A stretch of DNA of 64,000 nucleotides, from positions 1,281,532-1,345,531 of the forward strand of contig JARUPZ010000035.1 in NCBI GenBank assembly GCA_031213475.1, read 5' to 3'. Origin of the DNA: Nereocystis luetkeana. Its lineage: Eukaryota; Sar; Phaeophyceae; Laminariales; Laminariaceae. This document shows, one piece after another, positions 47,801 to 51,147 of this stretch. Below the pieces are notes generated by a model, which saw nothing but the letters and a program-made list of their open reading frames with translations, had not been told where the DNA came from and made no database searches. Numbering within the stretch: position 1 is the stretch's first letter; every line of letters starts with the position of its first letter. The translations under genes were made by a program, and so were the position numbers.

Positions 47801-50060
47801 CTGCCGTAAAACGCTCGCGACGTGCCAAGCCACGCCCAGACTACAGAAAATCAACTTGGATGAAGATGCTACAGGCCGAAGCCAAGCTGTTGGACCCCAC
47901 CTCAGACGAAGCCACGATCAACCAATACTAAACAAAACCACTTTTAAAAATCAGAACCCATAATACACGTTATATATTTTCACCCACACTTTTCTGTAGC
48001 CCGAAAACTCACAAAATAAAAAGACAGAAATAACGTCTCAAAATTTTCCCATAATACTTGGCCTAAGTGATACATATATAAATACGTACGACACGTGCAC
48101 GTGTATATGTGTGACACAGACCATATAAACGGCGGTAACCTCCAGCGCCCTCCGAGGGCGTAACGCCCAAACACGCGCCGGGGCCTTAATGCCTTTGCTA
48201 TGTATATTATCGCATACAAGAGGTATTCATAGGTACAGGGCTACACAGGGGGACGCAAAGGGTCCACACGTCGGAGAGTTCACGCTCTACACACCAGTAG
48301 ATAATCTATACCCGTACATAGGTAAAGCCGTGCCAGTATACCTTGTATATCAAAACCTGCCGTTATGATACGCTGTGCAGAGGATCTGTACTAATTAGCA
48401 ACAGAACAGATCCAACCCAGGAAACATGTCCTACCACAGACAGAGAGATCATGCGGGTTATACGGCTCGCACTCGGCAACATGAGCTAGATCATACACAT
48501 CATACAGATCAGGGATCCATCTGCCCTCAAAGATCTAGATCATCCAGCGGGAACGATCTGTAGACGATCTGTCGCGAGGTGTGAAAGGCTCAAAGAACAT
48601 GACCACGACAGCACCGTCCATCTCATACCGGGTACAGAGTACTGGTATACACGAAGCAAGCAGGCCGGGCTGGGTACGAAGGCAGCCCGGGGGTTAACTT
48701 TTAGGACTGCAGTCCCGTTTCGGGTACAAACTACTTAGACTTTGAGTGGATTGTCCCCAAAACGGAACTGCAGTTCTAAAAGGGTCAAGGGGGGGTGCAT
48801 CCGAATCGTCAAGGTAGGGCGAAGATATCCGATACTTACTGCCGGACCAGGTGCGCACTTGGCCTTCTGCGCGCTCTTCTTGCTAAGCAGTACTACGTAG
48901 TATTCACTCTAGAGTGTCAGTTGCCCGCAAAGTGCTGTGGAATCGGGGATCGCTTGGCACAGCAGGTGACAGAAGGGATAGTATGATAATAGTGTGCGGG
49001 GTTGCCGCTACGTATATACCTGGTACGCGTATAGTGCGGGTAAAACAAGAAAATATATAGTTTTTTGTGTCTGCCGTAGGTCCTACCAGGTATTTACTAT
49101 GGTCCCCCATATTACTACTGCCGCTGTACAGCTGTGCCGTACTGGTACGATGATACTGTTGCTGTAGACCAACGGGTACCAGTTTAATGTACTGTATCTA
49201 CTCTGTAAGTGCTACGTACTGCTGTGTGCCAAACTCCCATCCGAGTATCCGAGCACGTAAAGTTCTGACCCGCGGGTAAACAGCAGGGTACCGGGTACCT
49301 GGTACCAGATATGACATAACACTCTCTCTGTACTAAAATATAAGGACCGAATATGTATTAAAGTGGATGTACGAAGAGTCTTTAAATTTCCGGACAGAGT
49401 GGTACAATCTACAGCAGCAGGTAGGCTCCCAGGCCTTCGGTGTAGCAGCCGGGTTCCGTTTTTGAATTTGGGGAAAACGAGTGAGTTCAGCGAGCCCAAG
49501 TGCGCGCCGACGATTCTCGGCAACGGAACAAGGTACCAACCCACTGCTGCCACAGACGGCCTGGTCTCGATCACGAAGGTGTAATGTCGCACATAGCACC
49601 CTCGCAGGCTGGCAGGCTGGCGGAGGCTGGCGCCTCTGCTGGTACGCACCGCATGCGACCCGACTCGTCGCGCGCCAGAAACGATGAGAGCGAAGCTGCT
49701 GCTGCGTAGAGGTGTAGAGGAGCTGTGGCTCAAATTTCATTTGATGCTCAAACTGCTGCTGCTGTACGAACAGCAGTGCCTTCGCTCCACCACGCTCACA
49801 CGCAAACCAACGCAGACGCTTGCAGAGACAAGCGCGCGAGAAACATACCTCGGCCACTCCAGGGCGTGGGTCATCACCACGTCGTACAGAAAGGGGGTGT
49901 TCTTCTTCCACACTTTGTACTCCTCCGTGATGATCCTCTCCTCGGCCTGCTCGTTGGCGCTGTTAGCTTCGGCCGCGCTGGCGCTGATCGAGCCTCCAGC
50001 CGAAGCTGGCGCCGATCCCGCTCCAGCACCGGCCCCGCCCCCCTTTTCCAGTGATGACAT
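35862..50060 (-). CDS. RBBP4: Histone-binding WD40 protein RBBP4/MSI1 (CAF-1 p48)
   Basis: Eight minus-strand exons: 50060-49849 (ATG), 46686-46473, 44875-44721, 43704-43541, 42348-42209, 40657-40496, 39305-39121 and 36006-35862 (TAG). Each junction keeps frame, giving 458 residues (animal RBBP4 is 425). The N-terminal H4-binding helix is [20 protein letters not shown] and continues [15 protein letters not shown] repeats follow, with landmarks [65 protein letters not shown] and [20 protein letters not shown]. The last blade holds [17 protein letters not shown], ending acidic. In the family this subunit hands histone H3-H4 to CAF-1, PRC2, HDAC and NuRF complexes in the nucleus. Intron 2 uses a GC donor (AAG|GCAAGT). 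The N-terminus has an extra Gly/Ala/Ser-rich stretch. The last exon is followed upstream by two decayed partial copies of itself. Confidence 0.96.
36084..36330 (-). pseudogene. Two decayed tandem copies of the RBBP4 last exon start
   Basis: Copies near 36084-36180 and 36203-36320 repeat the 5' part of exon 8 with its upstream intron border (..CGCCTCCATAC..AG|CTGG). Copy 2 changes the acceptor to AAG and has a 4-base insertion before CGCCTCGGTGTC. Copy 3 keeps a CAG acceptor but carries an insertion and a frameshift that ends at TAG. Poly(G) tracts separate the units. The functional unit is the one at 35943-36030. Confidence 0.85.
36772..36877. mobile_element. Family A miniature element, copy 4
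   Basis: TTACGGGGGGGCATAGTAAA to CTATGGTCCCCCGTAAT, core GGACCAAATATTGTTAGT and GTACCGTAGGTCC. Confidence 0.9.
37222..37315. mobile_element. Family B miniature element, copy 3
   Basis: CACCCTTTTAGAACCGCAGT at left and ACTGCAGTTCTAAAGGGGTT at right with GGGGACAAACCACTC arms. It abuts copy 4. Confidence 0.85.
37315..37451. mobile_element. Family B miniature element, copy 4, internally duplicated
   Basis: TTTAACCCTTTTAGAACCGC at left and GTACTGCGGTTTTGTAAGGG at right. Inside, the arm CCACTCAAATTCCAAGTAGT plus TTGTCCCCAAAACGG occurs twice in tandem, making this copy about 40 bases longer than its relatives. Confidence 0.85.
37669..37752. mobile_element. Family D miniature element, copy 3
   Basis: AACCACTCCGGGCGAAAACAC at left, TTCCGCCCGAGAG at right; centre AAGGACGGTTTTATC.. 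..AAAGGTTCTTATAT. Confidence 0.6.
38179..38283. mobile_element. Family A miniature element, copy 5
   Basis: TTACGGGGGGTCATAGTTAA to CCACGGTCCCGCGTAA; one arm carries substitutions, the core is standard. Confidence 0.88.
39306..40495. other. RBBP4 intron 6 (about 1.2 kb)
   Basis: A strongly G-rich, strand-asymmetric block (39340-39600) adjoins exon 7, followed by A-rich sequence. A CAGATCATA-type repeat (part of a dispersed family shared with 48385-48575) lies at 40083-40335. Confidence 0.6.
40083..40335. repeat. Dispersed repeat F, copy with expanded CAGATCATA core
   Basis: Shares AACATGAGCTA, ATACAGATCAGGGAT and ATCTGCCC/ATCTGGCCCT blocks with 48385-48575. Between them this copy has about ten CAGATCATA/CACAGATCA units, where the other has only two or three. 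Confidence 0.75.
40914..41038. repeat. (CT)n dinucleotide array
   Basis: About 125 bases of CT with one TTT interruption near 41000 and a CC near 41030. Confidence 0.97.
41323..41445. repeat. Minisatellite containing TTAGGG-like units
   Basis: Three to four units of about 36 bases: CTGATTGGCTTAGGGT, then TAGGGTAGGGGTTGCT. TTAGGGTTAGGG occurs in the first unit and decays to TCAGGG or TTAGGGTGAGGG in others. Confidence 0.85.
41570..42160. repeat. Cluster of family C fragments with poly(C) ends
   Basis: Five or six fragments in the same orientation, each with GGTCTATGGTCATACGACTA, CGGCCATGCATGAT and GAGTAC followed by C-rich sequence. One (42015-42085) instead carries the ATGGTCAAATGACTAGGGCA sequence of the other GAGTAC family. 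Confidence 0.85.
42349..43540. other. RBBP4 intron 4 (about 1.2 kb)
   Basis: G-run at 42490-42516, a family D element (42819-42895), two family C fragments (42910-42990, 43300-43345) and extensive C-rich sequence up to exon 4. No gene seen. Confidence 0.6.
42819..42895. mobile_element. Family D miniature element, copy 4
   Basis: CAATCTGTCCGAAAAAATGT at left, CCTTAAATTTCCGGATGAGG at right; the centre TATTCATATGAATA is itself palindromic. Confidence 0.6.
43705..44720. other. RBBP4 intron 3 (about 1.0 kb)
   Basis: AAACCAGAAAAAA repeats at 43830-43880. Two inverted family C fragments (44385-44470, 44610-44712), each entered from a G run. No gene seen. Confidence 0.6.
45548..45615. repeat. Poly(C) tract, 68 bases with one A
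   Basis: 33 C, one A, then 34 C. It is the longest of many C/G homopolymers in the window and likely to be miscounted in any assembly. Confidence 0.9.
45620..45740. repeat. Family C fragment
   Basis: GCAAGCAATGTCTGACTGGT, GTGAAAACCCGACG, GTAGGGATGCGAGGGTCTAT and ATAATGAGTACAACCCCCCC. It lies between two C tracts. Confidence 0.8.
45926..46033. mobile_element. Family A miniature element, copy 6
   Basis: TAATACGGGGGGCCATAGTT to ACTATGGTCCCCCGTAATA with the standard core; TA at both borders. Confidence 0.88.
47314..47367. repeat. Perfect 54-base palindrome
   Basis: Left arm AAATCAGCAAAACCTCTCAG then AACTGAG; the right arm is its exact complement, with no spacer. Partial AACTGAGAT and GATCTCAGTT echoes lie outside. 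It is inside the Harbinger-like element. Confidence 0.9.
47521..47931 (+). CDS. Element-borne 136-aa protein, Ser-rich, likely transposase N-terminal remnant
   Basis: The frame begins [13 protein letters not shown], runs through a Ser-rich microsatellite (AGC)n, then [20 protein letters not shown] and [20 protein letters not shown] before ending INQY. The motif of an aromatic/basic W..ML...LLDP followed by S/T is reminiscent of the region just before the FRRRFR block in Harbinger-type transposases, but that block and the DDE core are absent. I therefore read it as the first exon of a transposase left after internal deletion, or an accessory protein. Lies wholly inside the element and opposite in strand to RBBP4. 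Confidence 0.5.
   Translation: MASPSHGSNISGGSSSCNSGTSSSRSSSSTASSSSSNSSTSSSSSSNSSSSSSSSDGDSMSPALILPCLDAETTLAAAAAFATFEDDEEDAETPAVKRSRRAKPRPDYRKSTWMKMLQAEAKLLDPTSDEATINQY
48385..48575. repeat. Dispersed repeat F, short-core copy
   Basis: GGAAACATGTCCTA, CAACATGAGCTAGATCATAC, CATACAGATCAGGGATCCAT; pairs with 40083-40335. Confidence 0.7.
48694..48787. mobile_element. Family B miniature element, copy 5
   Basis: TTAACTTTTAGGACTGCAGT at left; ACTGCAGTTCTAAAAGGGTC at right. Confidence 0.85.
49034..49114. mobile_element. Family A miniature element, copy 7, left end lost, TACCAGGTA inside
   Basis: Keeps TGCCGTAGGTCCTA and TTTACTATGGTCCCCCAT. Between them, CCAGGTA is inserted after a TA of the consensus CCTATTTACTATGG. 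Confidence 0.8.
49318..49404. mobile_element. Family D miniature element, copy 5
   Basis: AACACTCTCTCTGTACTAAAAT at left, TTAAATTTCCGGACAGAGTG at right; centre AAGGACCGAATATG. Confidence 0.65.
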
Positions 50061-51011: not shown

Positions 51012-51147
51012 TTACAGGGGACCGTTGTCATATAACTAGGACCGAACATTGTTAATTAATGGTAAAAACAGGGAAATATATAGATCTTTTGCATGTACCG
51101 TAGGTCCTATTTACTACCAGGTATACAGTATGTGGTCCCCCGTGATA
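51012..51147. mobile_element. Family A miniature element, copy 8, with inserted TACCAGGTA
   Basis: TTACAGGGGACC at left, GTGGTCCCCCGTGATA at right. The right arm CCTATTTACTATGG is interrupted after TA by CCAGGTATACAGTA. Confidence 0.8.

Follow-up and report, generated by a model that had tools for sequence, protein, structure and literature searches.

Elements of the Stowaway group have terminal inverted repeats (TIRs) that start CTCCCTCCRT, and Tc1-like elements of the Sleeping Beauty type use TA as their target and leave TIR-derived CAG or CTG footprints with an A/T centre. In rice, excision in the Stowaway/Osmar system leaves TIR residues between two TAs, according to portions of three reports (PMC4561436, PMC3660474, PMC1925063), and primers given in portions of two of them (PMC4561436, PMC3660474) contain CTCCCTCCGT. 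For Ectocarpus, another report gives 17 Mariner-Tc1 MITE families with almost 12,000 copies (PMC12477816); its main text uses neither "footprint" nor "excision". For brown algae or kelp, literature searches on this subject returned few or no matches, one being irrelevant by title, and TACCAGGTA used as a search word led to unrelated work, judging by the titles among the matches listed. Here we analyse TACCAGGTA in Nereocystis luetkeana, starting from a stretch of 64,000 nucleotides (the window). We consider it probable that the CCAGGTA or CCTGGTA insert in this word, hereafter the scar, was left behind by the excision of a Tc1/mariner-type transposon that moves by cut and paste and targets TA, namely a MITE that we call family B.

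Abundance and form of the scar

Comparison among repeat copies shows the scar to be an insertion at TA, 7 bp long and reading CCAGGTA or CCTGGTA. The window contains 22 copies of TACCAGGTA against 0.53 expected, and the 465-Mb genome contains 182,395 (91,240 + 91,155) against 1,744 (861 + 883) of the reversed word. The insert is therefore far commoner than the earlier note had seen, and the observation itself is confirmed: it had described a scar splitting two copies of another MITE, family A, after a TA, and both scars (49084-49092 and 51115-51123) do lie inside the split consensus. The TATACAGTA that follows the second of them, which had been read as a further scar, is probably not one, because, of the two places in the loci searched where TACAGTATGTGGTCC was found, one is this and the other lies within a family A copy (L015). 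The scars and family A copies concerned are as follows.

49034..49115 (approximate bounds), + strand: partial family A MITE copy split by a scar (copy 7 of the earlier note)
49084..49092, + strand: TACCAGGTA scar within that copy, site GGTCCTA^TTTACTATGG; word match and empty paralogs
51039..51147 (approximate bounds), + strand: family A MITE copy split by a scar (copy 8 of the earlier note)
51115..51123, + strand: TACCAGGTA scar within this second copy, at a different TA; word match
51124..51138, + strand: TACAGTATGTGGTCC segment that matches internal sequence of another family A copy, not clearly a second scar
41631..41639, + strand: TACCAGGTA scar, with an empty paralog near 62782 in the window
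49017..49025, - strand: TACCAGGTA scar; word match
49296..49304, - strand: TACCAGGTA scar; word match
51661..51669, + strand: TACCAGGTA scar; word match

A census of indels among repeat copies in 329 kb (31 loci, among which L001, L002, L005, L007 and L008 had been chosen for containing TACCAGGTA) yielded 168 insertions of 4-16 bp. Ten of the 24 insertions of 7 bp were framed by TA, and eight of these ten were CCAGGTA or CCTGGTA, one (L008:1501) in the loci chosen for the word and seven outside them. Scar density is even (2.88 per 10 kb, variance 3.47, 25 regions); long ORFs contain 0 of 22 scars against 253 of 3,139 TAs, numbers too small to judge. Words one mismatch away from the scar are enriched, as decay predicts (those differing by a transition sum to 78, while the reversed words give 14), and partly retain the flank signature described below (A/T at -7 in.62-.90 against a background of.52). 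Tandem and nested scars are also present, which fits reuse of the same TA. The description of the transposon as highly active holds for its activity summed over time, though the ages of the scars appear mixed. They seem to outnumber their source elements.

Another word, TACAGTA, had been mentioned in the earlier note as a classical Tc1/mariner scar that is also common here. It is indeed frequent, with 24 copies in the window and 108 in 314 kb (43 expected, 33 for its reversal), but it forms a separate class: it lacks the target signature within 7 bp on either side and would thus be another element's scar or a mixture.

Empty, scarred and filled copies of one target site

In the genome, the family A site GGTCCTA^TTWACTATGG is empty in 32,141 copies, and 1,538 carry inserts of 1-30 nt. 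Exactly CCWGGTA, which has the form of a footprint in that terminal bases stand between two TAs, is present in 613, and the reversed controls for these insert patterns gave 0. At a point of family A that is not a TA there were 447 matches with inserts, and CCAGGTA was not found among the 100 listed, 78 of which merely extend a C run (hand count) and 22 of which differ otherwise. The filled state consists of one copy read fully and one right junction. At L036:3891-3969, an intact 79-bp insert, CCAGTC...GAGTGG, lies at the same family A TA, in a copy that reads AAGTCCTA; it is flanked by TA on both sides, a duplication that is evident from the empty copies. The second intact element, on C30, was met by its right junction alone, with a pattern that requires a perfect ...AGTGG end, so the count of intact elements is a lower bound. 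A family B start was not found among inserts of 60-90 nt at this site in the 66 rows with letters (100 listed, of 498). A right-junction pattern gave 115 matches but could not match the family B consensus end, which has A at -5; these matches are uninformative on the number of intact elements. From the Tc1/mariner-type excision mechanism proposed earlier, the scar at TA and the empty, scarred and filled paralogs are supported, while the CCAGG ends are not supported and TACAGTA belongs to a separate class.

The flanks of scars and of intact transposon ends carry a common target signature, which reaches about 7 bp from the TA. Beside the scars, A/T occupies position -7 in 81 of 91 cases (G.01), T is rare at -1 (.07) and A at +1 (.04), -8 is weak, and there is little preference from position 8 outwards. 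Beside intact perfect ends (97 distinct flanks among 100 listed, of 714), A/T reaches.78 at -7 (p 1e-7) and T.04 at -1. The log-odds correlation with intact ends is.78 for the scars (both sides averaged), against.08 for TACAGTA and -.26 for TATTAATA (left sides only), words without the signature. The elements that have the scar's signature start CCACTC. Also rejected was TACCGGTA, which does not share the flank signature.

Family B as a candidate source and competing readings

Family B, a Stowaway- or mariner-like MITE, is the likely source of the scars. It has a modal length of 79 bp, a TA duplication and ends CCACTCTGTCC...GGACAGAGTGG, which are terminal inverted repeats (TIR CCACTCTGTCCGGAAATATAAGGACCGTTTGG), and its profile, built from both orientations, has a 79-bp near-palindrome as consensus. 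In 338 kb, this profile gave 28 matches at E<0.01, training copies included, and 0 in reversed sequence. In the genome, 52 copies have a perfect 11-nt sequence at each end and outer TAs, which the pattern demands, and 29 of the 50 listed are exactly 79 bp. Family B copies and partial matches in the window are as follows.

49323..49402, - strand: family B Stowaway-like MITE copy, 80 bp, diverged, within 49034..51147
37827..37905, - strand: family B MITE, 79 bp, TA on both sides, ends CCACTTTGTCCC / GGGACAGAGTGG
37673..37751, + strand: diverged 79-bp copy of the family B MITE, matched by the profile over 37673-37750
26573..26636, - strand: family B MITE, partial match
47108..47173, + strand: family B MITE, partial match
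44025..44104, - strand: family B MITE copy, 80 bp, diverged
42815..42889, + strand: family B MITE, partial match

In the mechanism that we propose, family B would insert at TA, duplicating it, and would be moved by what is presumably a mariner-like transposase. Its excision would leave the terminal CC(A) and (T)GG between both TAs; two 3′ overhangs ending in CCA might then meet with A opposite A, and after filling in, resolution of the mismatch could give either CCAGG or CCTGG. The genome has 24 matches to PF01498, 18 of them above the cut-off; long open frames accompany the matches at C1:3120193, C14:10945627 and C1:12540391, among others. No TIR could be recognised within 4 kb of one mariner-like ORF of 437 aa (L037), and among the loci examined, with this single mariner-like ORF locus, no autonomous element carrying family B TIRs was found. 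Other candidates were rejected as well: L013:5460-6447, considered as a parent, proved to be a hAT-like insertion that sits in a scar and has an 8-bp duplication, and two of the three right-junction candidates chosen (L034 and L035) have no matching left end within 4 kb.

Several observations count against family B as the source. Its intact ends have a weaker preference at -7 than the scars, and the scars' preference at +3/-3 is not clear in them. There are 613 scars at the test site against one full intact element and one right junction. The CCAGGG/CCCTGG class, 9 of 100 listed inserts, would require CCA to be followed by G, but the family B consensus reads CCAC; scars at a fixed target favour one orientation by 24:9 (p.014), a bias not expected from symmetrical ends; and our impression is that family B copies are more diverged than scars.

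Some of these points would be met by a different, low-copy TA transposon with real CCAGG ends, whose 5-nt overhangs would anneal to themselves except at the central A, so that family B would share only a related transposase and the target preference. Such an element predicts CCAGG/CCTGG directly and, through slipped pairing, the minor forms CCAGGG, CCAGGGG, CCCTGG, CCCCTGG, CTGG and CCGG, and it accounts for the near-absence of intact elements at the test site. The earlier note had likewise expected ends of CCAGG or CCTGG, but a search of 279 kb for inverted ends beside TA (14 nt, at most 2 mismatches, within 5 kb of each other) listed, for ends with these letters, solely pairs that open with the whole scar CCTGGTA (L012, L015). 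Moreover, 13 of the 25 test-site junctions starting CCAGG[A/C] continue as family A and are thus decayed scars, although three of the other 12 share CCAGGCAACATGAGC, as this transposon would allow, and family B alone already shows the target signature. We set this model aside as the main explanation on the inverted-end and junction results and keep it as a rival that we regard as unlikely.

It is very improbable that end joining, whether aborted or templated, put in the 7-bp unit directly at a TA nicked by the transposase, with no full element ever present. The large excess of scars over intact elements at the test site would suit such an origin, as would the single dominant joint, compared with the heterogeneous rice excisions described in part of PMC4423477; an intact element is nevertheless present at the same site, intact ends share the target signature, and the letters of the scar fit element ends CCA...TGG. 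The high and even density of TACCAGGTA, with a fixed core and preferred flanks, is also what a functional DNA motif such as a selected protein-binding site might produce. However, TACCAGGTA appears as 7 extra bp in repeat copies that match in other respects, its decay spectrum is rich in transitions, tandem CCAGGTACCAGGTA runs occur, and much of the flank preference is already seen beside intact transposon ends. A functional motif is already refuted for copies with empty paralogs, and overall we give it almost no credence.

Comparison with known elements

Footprints of transposons are as a rule scarce, variable and difficult to count, whereas here one stereotyped footprint is found 182,395 times, and a single assembly gives its target preference, its decay series and a site in three states. 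Past insertions of a transposon can be mapped after its copies have left, and it becomes possible to ask why excision outran the remaining copies. One 7-bp insert per ~2.5 kb is also a possible source of frameshifts and structural variation. A more far-reaching and doubtful proposal is that a host-assisted or programmed process in the sequenced lineage makes excision of this class of elements efficient or directed enough to remove nearly every recent insertion and leave a single defined joint. In that case the genome would be a dense archive of at least 10^5 erased insertions, and at sites like the family A target scars would exceed elements by a factor of hundreds.

With Sleeping Beauty-type Tc1-like elements, the scar shares the TA target, the A/T centre and, probably, derivation from TIRs, whereas TACAGTA, which has the form of their footprint, lacks the scar's ±7 target signature. 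Like the abundant, non-autonomous Mariner-Tc1 MITEs of Ectocarpus described in part of PMC12477816, family B is numerous and non-autonomous. It resembles Stowaway MITEs and the mariner-like Osmar elements of rice in its TA duplication and short, palindromic, non-autonomous form, and has the Stowaway traits of being short (<500 bp; modal 79 bp), palindromic, non-coding and high in copy number. Its TIR core, CTCYGTCCCRAAATATAAG, resembles CTCCCTCCGTCCCAGAAAG in rice-system primers (portions of PMC4561436 and PMC3660474), but it begins CCACTC and not CTCCC, and only the inner CTCYGTCCC resembles the Stowaway TIR. It differs further from Stowaway/Osmar in its sharply modal 79-bp length and its one dominant CCWGG footprint, and whereas the ratio of insertions to excisions for rice Mariner elements is near 2:1 (part of PMC4423477), here the scars seem to outnumber the elements.

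Abundance of the scar word and its insertion at TA

At both places described in the earlier note, which lie at 49084-49092 and 51115-51123, TACCAGGTA does split an element of family A, an abundant MITE, after TA. The window has 22 copies of the word against a mean of 0.53 in 100 shuffles, and a 314-kb sample, made up of the window and 25 stretches of 10 kb, contains 94 copies against 2 of the reversed word, the same letters read backwards. In the whole assembly (465,085,209 bases in 1,987 contigs), the two strands carry 91,240 and 91,155 copies, compared with 861 and 883 for the reversed word. 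Given a mean of 2.88 and a variance of 3.47 per 10-kb stretch (n = 25), the word is spread roughly evenly, and by eye the neighbouring sequence of the scars is mostly unique (91 sites, 25/29 sequences). The scar feature is real and very abundant; the surprise lies in its scale and in the fact that scars exceed elements. Other features were observed in the window and at one fetched locus, as follows:

Window 50464-50538, 51892-51966 and 52601-52675: around the second scar, three genes for tRNA-Met (CAT), of which the middle one is in inverted orientation.
Window 61190-61680: a minisatellite built from TACCAGGGTATC-like units, so that counts of TACCAGGGTA are inflated.
L013:5460-6447 (a fetched locus): a hAT-like element of 988 bp that has gone into a TACCTGGTA scar; it has a perfect 17-bp TIR, CAGGGATGCGTATTTCC, and shows a duplication of 8 bp, CCTGGTAC.

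The scar takes the form of an insertion at TA. Comparing repeat copies for short indels (31 loci, 329,045 bases) yielded 168 insertion events of 4-16 bp. Ten of the 24 seven-bp insertions were framed by TA, and eight of these ten are CCAGGTA or the complementary word; L008, a locus fetched for containing the word, supplies one of the eight. Of the 24 five-bp insertions, 7 were so framed, 5 of them with CAG/CTG plus TA, and TTAATA accounted for 2 of the 17 six-bp insertions. At one TA of family A, GGTCCTA^TTWACTATGG, hereafter the test site, 32,141 genome copies have no insert, 1,538 have 1-30 nt inserted, and 613 have exactly CCWGGTA, against none for the reversed pattern. The first 100 inserts listed comprise CCAGGTA (24), CCTGGTA (9), CCAGGGTA (8), CAGTA (2), CCCTGGTA (1), TTAATA (1), tandem scars or scar-like units (4), and a remainder of one-base changes and others, including four CTCCGAGTA at adjacent places on contig C2. 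At a non-TA control point of family A, where 447 copies bear inserts, CCAGGTA was absent from the 100 matches listed; by our count, 78 of these merely extend a C run, and the other 22 include two longer inserts bearing TACCAGTA or TACTGTA past the MITE end.

Family B as the likely parent

The test site also holds an intact insert. At L036:3891-3969, within a family A copy, lies a 79-bp element with TA on both sides that begins CCAGTCAGACCC and ends GGGTCGGAGTGG; it was present in one of the three test-site junctions fetched. A second 79-bp copy lies at L036:3369-3447, the two spanning about 600 bp. A profile of this family B, trained on six and then nine copies, has as its consensus a 79-bp near-palindrome with CCACTCTGTCCGGAAATATAAGGACCGTT ends, and gave 28 matches (E < 0.01) in 338 kb, of which 12 kb had been retrieved for the junctions and 15 kb because they contain the word; the reversed sequence gave none. 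The window contributes 12 of these matches, one of them at 49324-49402, inside the interval of the earlier note. Genome-wide, there are 714 perfect TACCACTCTGTCCC ends with a non-G nine bases before TA and 52 elements with both perfect 11-nt ends and TA outside (104 matches to the palindromic pattern); the length is exactly 79 bp in 29 of the 50 listed, and lies between 77 and 80 bp in 42.

In 91 scars with distinct flanks, taken from the sample and from five loci chosen because they hold the word, the left flank favours A/T at -7 (.45/.44, with G at.01) and A at -6 (.43) and avoids T at -1 (.07), and the right flank avoids A at +1 (.04) and favours T at +3 (.56), A/G at +4 (.73), T at +6 (.57) and A/T at +7 (.86). 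The preference is strong up to 7 bases from TA, with little from 8 outwards (-8 weak). It is present at TACCAGGGTA outside the minisatellite (11 sites) and absent at TACAGTA (115), TACGAGTA (56) and TACCGGTA (38). Read outward, the family B end flanks (97 distinct among 100 matches listed of the 714) show A/T at.78 at -7 (p = 1e-7 for the excess), A.40 and T.09 at -6, G.10 at -5, and A/G.85 and T.04 at -1, with -8 unbiased; the scars' preference at +3 is not clearly mirrored at -3 in these intact ends. Log-odds from -8 to -1 correlate between family B ends and scars at.64 (left),.73 (right) and.78 (averaged), compared with.08 for TACAGTA and -.26 for TATTAATA, left sides only for both. These shared preferences indicate that the same or closely related target-choosing machinery probably placed both elements and scars.

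The earlier note's reading of TACCAGGTA as an excision footprint was right in kind. Insertion at TA, TA duplication and shared target choice are shown, as are empty, scarred and filled states at one paralogous site, the filled state having been read once in full. The likely parent adds a further member to a known kind of transposon.

Excision model, misfits and age

Staggered cuts would leave 3′ overhangs ending in CCA on both sides; with the two terminal A opposed, the gaps would be filled with GG and the mismatch resolved to A or T. This model predicts minor joints, CCATGG without overlap and CCAG, CTGG and CCGG with more overlap, and all four are observed at the test site. CCAGGG and CCAGGGG do not follow from CCAC ends and would fit a relative starting with CCAGG, or with CCAG as in L036. 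The element ends starting with CCAGG that the earlier note had envisaged were not found among TA-flanked inverted ends in 279 kb. Of 25 left junctions at the test site starting CCAGG[A/C], 13 continue as family A and three of the other 12 share CCAGGCAACATGAGC. Three test-site junctions (C12:2899997, C20:99924 and C20:193386) share CCAGGCAACATGAGCT..., possibly another element's border, and these letters recur near window 48478 without the preceding CCA. Nor does an orientation skew of 24:9 at one target (p.014) fit the model.

The imbalance is sharpest at the test site, where one intact element read fully and one seen by its right junction face 613 exact scars; the right-junction search demanded a perfect ...AGTGG end and gave three matches, one a scar. 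Among the 60-90 nt inserts at this site, none of the 66 with letters (100 listed of 498) was family B. Genome-wide, the imbalance is milder: scaling up from the 28 matches in 338 kb gives about 38,000 elements. Our impression is that family B copies look strongly diverged from one another, so a younger relative of low copy number may have made the recent scars. A search for PF01498, a Tc3-type transposase domain, gave 24 genome matches, 18 over the cut-off. A 437-aa open frame at locus L037 falls just below it (31.4 against 31.5 bits) and matches Mos1 weakly (E 0.033); the 4 kb of this locus showed no recognisable inverted ends. Thirteen matches in G000:C29:3890863-5049588, each with one in-frame TAG and mostly about 80-105 kb apart, run forward and then reversed, an arrangement suggestive of large repeats or giant elements in an inverted array.

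Scars decay as neutral sequence does. One-substitution words, leaving out the central A/T swap, sum to 143 against 50 reversed and about 60 under a third-order model, with 78 transitions against 14 reversed (our sums). They partly retain the flank preference (A/T at -7 of.62-.90 in six, background.52), with mixed preferences on the right, so the scars are probably of mixed age rather than from a single recent burst. The one-substitution words, being about as numerous as exact scars, suggest an estimate of well over 182,000 events.

Other TA footprints and known systems

TATTAATA carries a different signature, AC..GT, and occurs 122 times in 314 kb against 8 reversed (for example, in L012:8790-8860). 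The signature resembles the sequence beside family A ends, where the two bases preceding TA-TTACGGGGG (n = 75) are ac in 22, cc in 11 and gc in 8, and TATTAATA has the look of a footprint left by the family A MITE (TA-TTACGGGGG...CCCCCGTAA-TA). This serves as a side check on the logic applied to the scar and family B, in that intact family A has a target in common with its likely footprint. In the genome sample, TACAGTA occurs 108 times (43 expected) and TACTCGTA/TACGAGTA 52 times (12 expected), and the repeats include five cases of TACAG/TACTG inserted at TA; these words may be footprints of further TA elements.

In the portions of the open-access literature covered, we found no comparable genome-wide footprint count, either for the word or for excision footprints. 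A paper on Ectocarpus transposable elements describes many Mariner-Tc1 MITEs, and the words footprint and excision are absent from its main text (PMC12477816). Stowaway MITEs, as described in three papers, are moved by mariner-like transposases, duplicate TA and leave TIR residues after excision (PMC4561436, PMC3660474, PMC1925063). By analogy, family B would work like Stowaway; its inner TIR resembles the Stowaway letters in published primers (PMC4561436, PMC3660474), but the first bases differ, and we therefore do not file it as Stowaway. In a rice study, excision products are heterogeneous and include deletions and fillers, and the Mariner insertion/excision ratio is near 2:1 (PMC4423477), whereas here a single joint dominates and the ratio of remaining elements to scars is reversed.
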